Source: Phycisphaera sp. (GTDB lineage: Bacteria; Planctomycetota; Phycisphaerae; Phycisphaerales; SM1A02). From it: a DNA stretch of 46,274 nucleotides. Made by a program: the position numbers and the translations under genes. The notes beneath the pieces were generated by a model. It had not been told where the DNA came from and did no database searches. It worked only from the letters and a program-made list of their open reading frames with translations. Shown here piece after piece: positions 15,309 through 19,805 of the stretch. The stretch covers positions 1-46,274 of the forward strand of contig WGMP01000032.1 of the NCBI GenBank assembly GCA_016124975.1, written 5' to 3'. Each line of letters begins with the position of its first letter. The stretch's first letter is position 1.

Positions 15309-16815
15309 GTCGACGACCAAAGGCGCGGGGACCGCGGGACAGCCGGCGGCGATCAGCGGCATCGAGGCCATGCGTGGCGTCGGCGCGGGGCAGGCCAAGG
15401 GCTTCTGGTCCGACGCGTGGAGCCGCGTGGTCGCGCGCTTCGGCGCGAGGGTCGCGCTCGGCTGGATCGGGACGGTGGCGTTCTTCGCGGTGTTCGCGCC
15501 GGTTCTCGCGAGCGCGCATCCGCTCCTGCGCCGCAACACGGAGACGGGGGAGTGGGACTCGCCGCTCTGGCAGAGCCTCAGCTCGGTCGATCTCGCGCTG
15601 CTGGCGGGCGGGTTGTTCGCGCTGCCGTGGGTCTGCATGCCGTCGTCGTTCGCCGCGCGTCTCGGTGTCTCGGCGCGCTCGGCGCGGCTCGGGCTCCTCT
15701 TCCTCGCCGCGATGCAGGGTGGGTTCACGGTCGTCGCCGCTGGCGCCGTGAGCGCGTGGTCGCGCGGGCTCGACAGCGCGGCGTGGATCCGCGACCTCGG
15801 TAAGCTCGAGGCGTTCCCCTGGATCGCAAGCGCGGTCGTCGGCGCGTTGGCGTTCGTGGCGGCGCTGGCCATCGCGGGCAGGCAACCTGTGCGGGTCGCG
15901 CTCGTCGCACTCACGGCGGTCATCGCCGTGACGGCTGGGGCCTCGCGCTGGTCGGACACGCTCGTCAACTTCGACACCTACGACTCGCAGGAGGCGTCGG
16001 GCAAGTACTCGATGGTCTACACGCTGATCCCGTTCTCGCCCGACTTCGGTCGGTCGGACCTCAATGTGAAGCCGCCGATGGCGAAGGTCGCGGAGGTTGC
16101 GCCCGAGACGGCGGGGCGGCCCGTCGGGGAGCGCACGGTCATCCTTGGCACGGACGCTCTCGGCAAGGATGTCCTCTCACAGATGCTGTGGGCGTGCCGC
16201 CTGTCAATCTCGATTGGCCTCGTGTCGACGGGAATCGCGGTTCTCATCGGGGTCACGATGGGCGCGCTGATGGGCTATTTCGGTGGCTGGATCGATCTCC
16301 TGCTCTACCGCGTCGTCGAGATCTTCATGGCGATCCCCGTGCTGTTTCTCCTCATCGTGGCTGCGGCGGTGCTGCCGCGGAACACATACATGATGATGGC
16401 GATCATCGGCTGTGTGTCGTGGACAGGCGCCGCGCGCTTCACGCGCGCCGAGTTCCTCAAGCTCCGCAAGCAGGACTTCGTGCAGGGCGCGCAGGCCGCG
16501 GGCCTTCCGCTGCGCAGCGTCCTCTTCCGGCACATGCTTCCGAACGGCGTGACGCCCGTCCTCGTCGATGCGTCGTTCGCGGTCGCAGCAGCGATCATCG
16601 CCGAGGCGACGCTCTCCTATCTCGGCCTCGGTCCCGACGGGCAGCCATCGTGGGGCAAGCTCCTCTCGAGCGCGACGGGGACGACGGGAACCTTCGTCTG
16701 GTGGCTCGCCATCTTCCCTGGGCTCGCCATCTTCTTCACCGTGCTCAGCTACAACATGCTTGGCGAGGCCATGCGCGACGCGATCGACCCGAAGCTTCGA
16801 AAGGCGGCGCACTGA
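15301..16815 (+). CDS. oppC: OppC/DppC-family permease with extra membrane helices (second copy)
   Basis: This 504-residue OppC-type protein is about 200 residues longer than usual. After the first helix (about residues 50-70) come some four extra hydrophobic segments in residues 95-220, then an extracytoplasmic segment. The hallmark [15 protein letters not shown] and the normal five-helix core follow, with the EAA loop ([23 protein letters not shown]) and LSYLGLG. It is the better placed OppC partner for the OppB before it, which it overlaps by 8 bases. The stop overlaps the ATPase start (TGATG). The meaning of the extra helices is unknown. Confidence 0.88.
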
Positions 16816-17915
16816 TGGAAGCCGCGACCACGACGACCGTTCCCGCCGCTGCGGCGAAGACGAAGCCGATCCTCGAGGTCGCCGACCTCGCCGTCAGCTT
16901 CGCGAACTCGGCGGGCGGCCCGCGCATCCAGGCAGTCGCAGGCGTGTCGATGACGGTGCACCCGAACCAGACGCTCGCGGTGGTGGGCGAGTCGGGCTGC
17001 GGCAAGAGCGTGACCGCGATGAGCACCATGCAGCTCATTCCGCGTCCGCCCGGCCGGTTCGACCGCGGGTCGATCCTGTTCGAGGGCGAGGACATCCTCT
17101 CGTACACCGAGTCGCAGATGCTCAAGGTGCGCGGCGGGAAGATCGCCATGATCTTCCAGGAGCCGATGACGAGCCTGAACCCCGTCTACACGATCGGCGA
17201 CCAGATCATCGAGGCGATCCTTCTACACCAGAAGGTCGGCGCGGACGAGGCGTGGAAGCTTGCCGTGCGCGCCATGCAGGATGTCGGCATCCCGAAGGCG
17301 GAAGAGCGGATGCGCGCCTATCCGCACCAGTTCTCGGGAGGCATGCGCCAGCGCGTGATGATCGCGATGGCGCTTGCGTGCCAGCCGACGCTGCTCTTGG
17401 CCGACGAGCCGACGACCGCGCTCGATGTGACGATCCAGGCCCAGATCCTCGAGCTTCTGCGCGAACTGCAGCGCACGCGCGGCATGGGCATCATGCTCAT
17501 CACCCACAACCTCGGCGTCGTCGCCGAGAACGCCGACGTGGTGTGCGTGATGTACGCGGGCCGCGTGGTCGAGTACGCGCGGGTGTTCGAGCTCTTCGAC
17601 AACCCGCTGCATCCCTACACACGCGGGCTCTTCAACTCGATTCCGCTCCTTTCGACGCGGAAGCATCGGCTCACCACGGTCGAGGAAGTGGTGAACGACC
17701 CAGCGCAGTTCAAACTCGCTGGGTTTGCAGGCGACCTCGTTCCGTGGTGGCCCGATCCGCCGAAGGGCGTGCGCCCCGATGTTGCGCGCGACCGCGACGA
17801 GTACGCGCTTGTCCAAGTCGCGCCAACGCGGTGGGTTGGATGCTTCAACTCGCCGTGGGTCGAGTCGCACGCGAGCCCGCGGCCCGATCTCGACTACCGC
17901 CGCGAAGATGCGTGA
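16815..17915 (+). CDS. oppD: OppD/DppD-family peptide transporter ATP-binding protein
   Basis: The 366-residue ATPase powers the importer from the cytoplasmic side. It shows Walker [15 protein letters not shown], the Q-loop in [11 protein letters not shown], the signature [15 protein letters not shown], Walker [14 protein letters not shown] and the H-loop ITHNLG. The C-terminal extension ([17 protein letters not shown]) is the standard oligopeptide-ATPase tail. The ATG overlaps the OppC stop. No OppF-type second ATPase lies next to it, so it may work as a homodimer or pair with a subunit encoded elsewhere. Confidence 0.92.
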
Positions 17916-17930
17916 TGCGTGATGCGCGGT

Positions 17931-17965
17931 TGAGCGGTCGCGGCTGCGGCTGCTCCATCTGGTGC
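17931..17965 (+). repeat. Diverged copy of the right-end repeat
   Basis: TTGAGCGGTCGC, CTGCGGC and a GCTCC-type end, in the same order and spacing, match the stretch beginning at 46077 and again at 46199 (TTGAGCGGTCGCCGCTGCGG and GCTTCC). It lacks the hairpin part of the 122-bp unit. It suggests a dispersed repeat family in this genome. Confidence 0.5.
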
Positions 17966-17991
17966 TCGGTTGGTTGACGGGTCTCTCACGG

Positions 17992-18015
17992 AGGCACAGA
18001 GGCACAGAGGCGTGG
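17992..18015. repeat. AGGCACAG tandem repeat
   Basis: AGGCACAG occurs at 17992-17999 and 18000-18007, followed by AGGCGTGG at 18008-18015, just after TCTCACGG. From general knowledge, similar CACAGAGGCACAGAGG stretches recur between genes in many environmental bacterial genomes. It lies in the leader of the peroxiredoxin gene, and a longer translation through it would be an artefact. Confidence 0.55.
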
Positions 18016-18059
18016 TTTTGGTTGAATCCACGTCGCGTTGGGCGCGAAGCGGGCCCACC

Positions 18060-18776
18060 ATGCCGACGACCACCACCAAGAAGAGCAGGGCCTCGAAGAA
18101 GGCCGCGAAGAAGTCCACGAAGAAGGCCGCGAAGAAGTCCACGAAGAAGGCCGCGAAGAAGGCCACGAAGAAGTCCACCACGAAGGCCGCTTCCAAGCCT
18201 GTGAAGGAATCTGCGAAGAAGGCTCTGACCAAGCAGCTTCCGGTCAAGACTGCTCTCGCCAAGAAGACCGCCGCCGTCAAGCCGACGGGCCTCGTCGAGG
18301 TTGGCTCGCCTGCGCCCGCCTTCAGCGCGGTCGACGCGGCGGGCAAGACCGTCACCCTCGCGAGCCTGAAGGGCAAGCCGTTCGTCCTCTACTTCTATCC
18401 CGCCGACGACACGCCTGGCTGCACGGTCGAGGCGTGTGCGTTCCGCGACAACCGCCCGAAGTTCGCGAAGCTCGGCTGCCCCGTGCTCGGCGTGAGCCCC
18501 GACACCGTGGACAGCCACAAGGCCTTCGACGCGAAGTACAACCTCGGCCTCACGCTTCTTGCCGATGTCCCTGCGAAGGACGGCGTTCCGCCCGTCGCCG
18601 CCTCGTTCGGCGTGTGGCAGGAGAAGAGCATGTACGGCAGGAAGTACATGGGCATCGTCCGCACGACCTTCCTGGTCGGATCCGACGGCGTCATCGCGGC
18701 GCGCTTCGACAAGGTCAAGGTCGAAGGGCATGCCGAGGAAGTGCTCGCTGCGGTGGCCGCACTGCGGACCCGCTGA
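18060..18776 (+). CDS. bcp: PrxQ/Bcp-type peroxiredoxin with N-terminal histone-H1-like Lys/Ala tail
   Basis: Thiol peroxidase that reduces hydroperoxides using thioredoxin. The catalytic domain is residues about 78-238: GSPAPAFSAVDAAGKTV, then YPADDTPGCTVEAC. The peroxidatic Cys121 and resolving Cys126 form the C-X4-C pair typical of PrxQ. GVSPDTVDSHKAF and RTTFLVGSDGVI complete the fold. The first 75 residues are unlike other peroxiredoxins: a Lys/Ala/Ser/Thr tail with repeated KKAAKKST units, resembling histone H1-like and AlgP-like DNA-binding tails. The frame is continuous, so this is a true fusion. I chose ATG 18060 because the in-frame upstream part is repeat DNA. A nucleoid-bound, DNA-protecting peroxidase is an attractive inference. 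Nothing in the sequence proves DNA binding. Confidence 0.88.
   Translation: MPTTTTKKSRASKKAAKKSTKKAAKKSTKKAAKKATKKSTTKAASKPVKESAKKALTKQLPVKTALAKKTAAVKPTGLVEVGSPAPAFSAVDAAGKTVTLASLKGKPFVLYFYPADDTPGCTVEACAFRDNRPKFAKLGCPVLGVSPDTVDSHKAFDAKYNLGLTLLADVPAKDGVPPVAASFGVWQEKSMYGRKYMGIVRTTFLVGSDGVIAARFDKVKVEGHAEEVLAAVAALRTR
18096..18167 (+). repeat. Three 24-bp coding repeats in the lysine tail
   Basis: A 24-bp unit beginning AAGAAGGCCGCG occurs at 18096-18119 and 18120-18143, with a near copy at 18144-18167. Each encodes KKAAKKST or KKAAKKAT. The repeats show that the tail grew by in-frame duplication. Confidence 0.85.
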
Positions 18777-18870: not shown

Positions 18871-19070
18871 AGGTGTCCCTCTTCGCCATGGAAATCGCCC
18901 GCCGCCGCTTGAAGCGAGTGGTGGGTCGGTCTTTGATGCGCCCCGCACCCGTCCTCTTGGCCGAATTCACGCATGCTCCTCGGGGCCTGCGCGAGGGGCA
19001 CGCCCGGAGGACCGAACGGGGGCGAATCGCCTCGAAGAGGCTTGTCACGAATCGAGAAGGAGTGGAAGAG

Positions 19071-19805
19071 ATGCGTTTCACGCAACAGGCAGTGTTCATG
19101 TCGGTGGCCGTGGCCTTCGTGGGAGGTGCCGCGCAGGCGAGCTGGACGCTTGGGAACGGCGACACGCTGTCGTTCACCGAGCTCTTTGCGGCGGGGAGCG
19201 ACCGCACTGTGTTCATCGATGACAAGAAGTTCGTCTTCGAGTCGTTCACCTCGGCGCACTTCGACCTCGAGGGCATCTCGCTCATCGGGTTCATCTCGTT
19301 GAATGGGAACGGCTCGGGGTATCGCAACGTGGGCTTCGACCTGACGGGCGGCTTCGGCGACACGCTCCCCGGCGACCAGACCATCGCGGAGGCGAACCTC
19401 CAGTACACGGTCGAGATCACCGAGTCGGCCTACGCGCAGGGCGTTCGCCTCTGCGACGTGCGTGCGACCTTCAACGGCGACGTCGAGGGCACGGGCGCCT
19501 ATGCCCGCGTCGACGAGACGATCTTCGATCTCGACACGAACACCTACCTCGGTCAGCTGAGCGTCTATGACTTCTGGGGTCCGCCGCGCGACACGAAGCT
19601 GAACGACTACATCGACTTCTGCGCCGACGGCCACGAGGGCTACCGCGCCTTCGAGATCAACAAGGACATCAAGTTCTTCGCGCCGAACGAGAACAGCTTC
19701 TCGTCCGCGTCGTTCGTCCGCCAGGAGTTCAGCCAGATTCCCGCGCCGGGCGCCATCGCGCTCCTCGGCCTCGCGGGGCTCGTCGGCCGTCGCGCCCGCC
19801 GTTGA
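19071..19805 (+). CDS. Secreted protein with PEP-CTERM-like sorting signal
   Basis: The 244-residue protein has a signal peptide ([22 protein letters not shown]) and a beta-rich body with no domain I recognise (motifs such as [24 protein letters not shown]). It ends with [15 protein letters not shown] followed by Arg-rich RRARR. This tripartite end (Pro-rich motif, hydrophobic helix, Arg cluster) is the planctomycete variant of the PEP-CTERM signal that exosortase systems process during export to the surface. The ATG at 19071 follows GAAGGAG and GGAAGAG. The gene has ordinary start signals and stands alone. Cargo function unknown. Confidence 0.8.

Follow-up and report, generated by a model that had tools for sequence, protein, structure and literature searches.

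The window analysed here, 46,274 nucleotides of contig WGMP01000032.1 from the planctomycete Phycisphaera sp. (assembly GCA_016124975.1), carries a gene for a PrxQ-type peroxiredoxin with a lysine-rich tail in front of its peroxidase domain. The gene is real, a tail stands on every ortholog found in the genus, and comparable tails occur on PrxQ in several other branches. On balance, we lean towards the view that the product is a cytosolic PrxQ thiol peroxidase which is tethered by its tail to nucleic acid, most likely in the nucleoid.

Gene, peroxidase domain, and tail

The open reading frame (ORF) starts with ATG at 18060 and runs over 238 codons to a stop at 18774-18776. The sequence-only reading, which was made from the letters of the window without database searches, had described a complete C-X4-C PrxQ domain (Cys121, Cys126) behind about 75 lysine-rich residues built by 24-bp duplications. 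This description was borne out in both parts, as the domain is complete according to Pfam and the alignment, and the tail has 76 residues and contains a 24-bp repeat (Table 1). On the minus strand, positions 17223-18731 of the window hold a long ORF with GLLRGLLRGLL repeats that mirror the lysine repeats and is probably a shadow of the G+C-rich coding. The C-terminus of the downstream gene product (18873-19805) resembles, by reading only, a PEP-CTERM surface-protein anchor.

Table 1 Features of the tailed prxQ locus, with positions in the window
Feature	Position	Strand	Remarks
Upstream gene, ABC-transporter ATPase by reading	16815..17915	+	Orthology marker
Upstream element TGMATCC-N14-GCGAA	18023..18048	+	11 bases before ATG; two-box, promoter-like by look only
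Tailed PrxQ gene	18060..18776	+	238 aa; ORF, profile search, orthologs
Lysine-rich low-complexity tail, residues 1-76	18060..18287	+	26 K, net charge +26, predicted disordered
24-bp tandem repeat	18094..18173	+	Tandem Repeats Finder, 3.3 copies, 98% matches
PrxQ/BCP peroxidase domain, residues 77-238	18288..18773	+	Profile, alignment, model, structure comparison
C121 codon	18420-18422	+	Worked out from start 18060
C126 codon	18435-18437	+	Worked out from start 18060

Residues 81-214 match the Pfam family AhpC-TSA (PF00578, E=4e-35). At E<=0.001, Pfam gives only AhpC-TSA and Redoxin, and a ferritin fold is thus absent. The best solved relative by sequence is 5enu, followed by BCP/PrxQ proteins, and PrxQ/BCP crystal structures also rank first (Z 25-27.5) when compared with the AlphaFold2 model, whose domain has a pLDDT of about 97. 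C121 and C126 sit in the PrxQ active-site motif PxxxTxxC, with the resolving Cys five residues on. P114, T118, C121, and R201 do not vary in an alignment of 44 sequences including the query, and C126 hardly does. The NCBIfam scores were 134.5 bits against a cut-off of 140 (NF006960) and 137.9 against 260 (NF053650), both cut-offs being thresholds for naming. We predict a PrxQ-type thiol peroxidase, presumably located in the cytosol, in which the C121-C126 pair would be expected from the known chemistry of PrxQ to reduce hydrogen peroxide or organic peroxides.

The tail is rich in K, A, T, and S (34% K) and has a single acidic residue. Its composition is H1-like, with repeats rich in K/A/P/T/S and almost no acidic or bulky residues. 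AlphaFold2 gives block means of pLDDT of 51-59 and no secondary structure over residues 1-70. Three sequences were scanned with curated H1-like models, all of which stayed below cut-off. The tail studied here gave no H1-like hit, and a stretch of 168 residues from the G137 tail obtained E=1.2 with HC2 and E=0.015 with a Burkholderia H1-like model; such models cope poorly with low-complexity sequence.

Lysine richness was scanned in ORFs of >=60 aa over 446 kb (the window and a further 400 kb, some 12% of the 3.6 Mb genome). Three ORFs contain >=10 K in a 40-residue stretch, namely PrxQ with 18 and two others with 10 and 12, and by this composition scan the lysine tail is beyond chance. The scan is better evidence of rarity than searches with the tail as query, which were insensitive: one recovered its query alone and missed known strong tails in seven other genomes. 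In this genome, the tail query at E<=1 matched a 34-aa peptide besides PrxQ, and these two places are a lower bound. At L005 1507-1611 (G000:C50), between dapB-like and ferredoxin-like genes (by reading), a free-standing peptide of 34 residues, MAAKKKAAKKAAKKTAKKAAKK..., is encoded. Similar peptides were found in 11 of 16 same-genus genomes, and it is possibly a minimal H1-like nucleoid protein.

Retention of the tail in the genus and translation start

Twelve of the 16 same-genus genomes, this one included, contain an ortholog; a close PrxQ ortholog was not found in the other four, of which one is 78% complete and three are 95-98% complete. All 12 orthologs bear a basic tail, which is complete in 11 and, in one, cut by the contig end but K/T-rich where visible. 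The complete tails measure 31 to 116 residues with 18-34% K, a net charge of +10 to +26, and 0-3% acidic residues. They are kept while the identity of the PrxQ domain drops to about 63%, and the mean pairwise identity within the genus is 0.39 for the tail versus 0.72 for the domain. Among close relatives, the number of KKSVT units changes in frame (three in G002, two in G011, and one in G005).

Translation starts with ATG-Pro in 10 of the 11 readable same-genus orthologs. The upstream element, with a spacer of N14-15, is exact in nine of these 11 and lies 9-11 bases before the start; by reading, the match is only approximate in G004 and missing in G007. It was not found before 19 other PrxQ genes (within 200 bases; 87 for one). 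With spacers of N14-17, this genome has five sites and the 15 other genus genomes have 4 to 13 each, compared with 0 to 2 in the backward-read control, and the only site in the 446 kb sample stands before prxQ. The other sites could, but need not, mark a regulon.

Because all 12 orthologs are tailed and both the ATG-Pro start and the upstream element are conserved, the tail is very probably translated as part of the protein. Were translation to begin after the tail, the lysine frame would be a 5' leader only. An obvious ribosome-binding site was not seen before 18060 (by reading), which would agree with such a late start, but the conserved ATG-Pro, the variation of the repeat by whole codons, and the conserved element shortly before the ATG make it extremely improbable. 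The sequence-only reading had named this late start, and a tail missing from the orthologs of close relatives, as outcomes that would speak against it. Neither occurred.

Tailed PrxQ across the class and beyond

PrxQ was detected at E<=1e-30 in 119 of 298 class genomes, and we examined 84 PrxQ frames from 82 loci (30 top survey loci and 52 picked mainly for long ORFs). A tail counted as strong when >=8 K fell within 30 consecutive residues next to the domain, a threshold that was set after the ranking had been seen and that lies at the gap between 8 and 5. By this definition, 11 of the 84 frames, from 10 genomes, are strongly tailed at the N- or C-terminus; the fusion that the sequence-only reading had proposed to look for in other planctomycetes is found there. 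Apart from six places that were read through the ortholog loci, the class-survey places outside the 84 have ORFs of 177 aa or less. Two of these six, G041 and G053, show a short K-rich tail below the threshold.

Two of the strong tails belong to this genus, five to family f22, one to G293, one to G278, and two to G313. The N-terminal tails of family f22 (L225 88-657, L229, L234, L217, and L224) are K/R tails and about 100-190 residues long. G313 (L210) carries PrxQ as a tandem pair, and a lysine tail stands at the C-terminus of each copy. Outside the class survey, there are N-terminal tails in the alphaproteobacteria-labelled L075 and L102 and in the near-identical loci L060 and L080, and C-terminal tails in L048 and L076 (Phycisphaerales, labelled Tepidisphaera). 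Several of the tailed PrxQ of family f22 share a KRPRRT-like linker.

As a control enzyme, Ndk showed a K-tail in one of 70 frames, that one being a doubtful upstream frame. The Ndk sample consisted of 70 loci out of 277 matching genomes, namely the 30 top loci and 40 of the 41 others with an ORF >=185 among the matches listed. Fisher's test by frame (11/84 PrxQ versus 1/70 Ndk) gave p=0.007, and by genome (10/119 versus 1/70) a borderline p=0.057, kinship being ignored in both. A tree of 113 PrxQ domains, built by a quick method from hand-chosen rows and with four long end branches flagged, requires the tail to have been gained or lost eight times, and at least six of these events are forced by starred branches. 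This tree leaves out L228 (tail cut by the contig edge) as well as L027, L031, and L099, whose tails are short or weak, and it scores L187, which has a mild basic extension, as tail-less. As judged from these sequences, the tailed PrxQ is probably a recurrent, convergent variant in several branches.

Origin of the tail in this genus

A homolog of the ABC-transporter ATPase lies upstream on the same strand, with its end <1 kb from the PrxQ domain, in all eight readable same-genus loci; three more loci begin too near the contig edge. It is likewise upstream of prxQ in 8/8 same-family loci tested and was not found at the seven prxQ loci tested from outside the family. Seven of the eight syntenic orthologs from other genera of the family are without a tail, and one (G263, L187) has the mild basic extension. 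The most economical explanation would be an addition of the tail upstream of the ancestral start codon within this genus. Gain is favored over loss because these neighbors are tail-less, the tree alone being unable to separate the two.

A match to ferritin/Dps (PF00210) is absent from all 16 same-genus genomes. As PF00210 is present in 249 of the 298 class genomes, its absence from the genus is unusual for the class. The tail as a replacement of Dps was considered and rejected, because it does not track the absence of Dps/ferritin: Dps/ferritin is present in eight of the 10 class-survey genomes with strong tails, and 9 of 11 other family genomes with a PrxQ match have neither Dps/ferritin nor a strong tail.

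Proposed function and alternative explanations

The disordered cationic tail would hold PrxQ on nucleic acid by charge, without sequence specificity. With the nucleoid as the most likely place of tethering, peroxide would be removed next to DNA. We infer this binding, the location, and the benefit from the properties of the tail: a nucleic-acid-tethered peroxidase is favored because the tail is predicted to be disordered, is cationic, conserves its charge despite sequence drift, and occurs at either end of the domain, and because HupB, TopA, and Dps offer analogies. The occurrence of tails at either end in several branches would fit tethering to a polyanion. Points against it are that four same-genus genomes have no close ortholog of this PrxQ, that the H1-like models stay below cut-off, that the tail does not track the absence of Dps/ferritin, and that the excess over Ndk is borderline by genome. 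Gemmata is a planctomycete of another class than the one studied here. Its nucleoid is described as strongly condensed (PMC3440768).

The polyanion may also be a different one. The tail could bind ribosomes, RNA, polyphosphate, or acidic membranes in general, as part of a lineage habit of adding basic extensions to cytosolic enzymes, and the gain could be solubility, localisation, or stability instead of protection of DNA. S-adenosylhomocysteinase (AhcY; L161-L170) points in this direction, since it has a K/S/T-rich N-terminal extension in 10/10 same-genus genomes read, 12 having a match. This extension comprises 32-51 residues with 4-7 K (counted up to a cut placed 27 residues before a conserved motif; for AhcY of G004 an over-long start was picked). 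Basic or repetitive N-terminal extensions are also found on FumC in G002, PurM in G012, and ThiG in G008, one genome each (names by reading). As these four metabolic enzymes have no DNA role, they weaken the DNA-specific reading of the PrxQ tail. Their extensions are milder, however; the PrxQ tail exceeds them in length and, by a wide margin, in basicity, nothing comes near it in the 446 kb, none of the 70 Ndk loci read from the class has a clear tail, and PrxQ tails occur in distant families. We therefore regard general polyanion binding as rather unlikely. Still less probable is an origin of the tail as a near-neutral product of repeat slippage on a protein that tolerates a basic disordered extension. 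The in-frame variation of the KKSVT copy number in G002, G011, and G005 and the faster divergence of the tail than of the domain would be expected from slippage. The 11 complete tails nevertheless keep their positive charge and their scarcity of acidic residues, and they do so in a lineage in which the window has 70% G+C and long ORFs contain about 1.6% K (>=300 aa, spurious ones included). Slippage also accounts poorly for tails at both ends of the domain and in several branches.

Tethering to nucleic acid thus remains the reading that we prefer. Of the original interpretation, the part concerning the tail has held, as the tail is kept in the genus and is recurrent; the part specific to DNA is weakened by the other tailed enzymes, and the claim of a new design holds only partly. 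It may further be that bacteria repeatedly built a nucleoid-bound peroxiredoxin by means of an H1-like tail at one or the other end of PrxQ and that, in this genus, in which Dps/ferritin was not found, it locally shields the chromosome from peroxide as one of the main defences; this wider proposal is tentative, and we lean slightly against it. If it is true, several bacterial lineages put a peroxidase directly on DNA by a simple tail and reached separately the same solution as eukaryotic nuclear peroxiredoxins. It would then offer a clean test of whether local, as opposed to bulk, removal of peroxide lowers DNA damage and the mutation rate.

Comparison with known systems

The bacterial PrxQ/BCP proteins of Xanthomonas campestris (5iiz) and Burkholderia ambifaria (5enu) share the fold (Z 25-26), the motif, and the C-X4-C pair. 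The matched PrxQ crystal chains have 153-159 residues and represent the domain alone, with no counterpart of the 76-residue lysine tail. In the open-licence literature, we found neither a description of bacterial peroxiredoxins that bear lysine-rich or H1-like tails nor a paper on lysine-rich tails in planctomycete nucleoids. The statement of the sequence-only reading that no protein of this design is described therefore stands for bacteria within that literature; it does not extend to the idea as such, because eukaryotes have nuclear or chromatin-associated peroxiredoxins and Dps embodies a similar idea.

Tails of PAKK/KAAK or lysine repeats stabilise the DNA complexes of actinobacterial HupB and TopA. 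HupB requires its PAKK/KAAK repeats to bind DNA stably (PMC5676037), and lysine repeats stabilise TopA on DNA (PMC5676037, PMC7398561). In both proteins, the other domain itself binds DNA, whereas in the tailed PrxQ it is a peroxidase. Dps likewise joins oxidative protection to lysine-bearing disordered tails, which are linked to DNA binding (PMC9103930). It differs in its ferritin fold, its iron chemistry, and its 12-subunit cage, and sequence kinship to PrxQ was not found.

There are also parallels in eukaryotes. The extensions of Dot5, the nuclear thiol peroxidase of yeast, and of Plasmodium nPrx are basic, and we know of no KKAAKK repeats in either. Dot5 (PDB 2a4v) has the same fold as the PrxQ domain (Z 23.4, rmsd 1.7, 151 aligned residues, 26% identity), and the start of the match at residue 59 of the truncated construct suggests an N-terminal extension of similar length. 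Richard et al. 2011, cited in PMC3337327, call nPrx chromatin-associated in their title. Unlike the bacterial tailed PrxQ, Dot5 and nPrx are eukaryotic nuclear proteins. The idea of a chromatin-bound peroxiredoxin is thus known from eukaryotes, and the tailed PrxQ would be a new bacterial form of it that probably arose by convergence.
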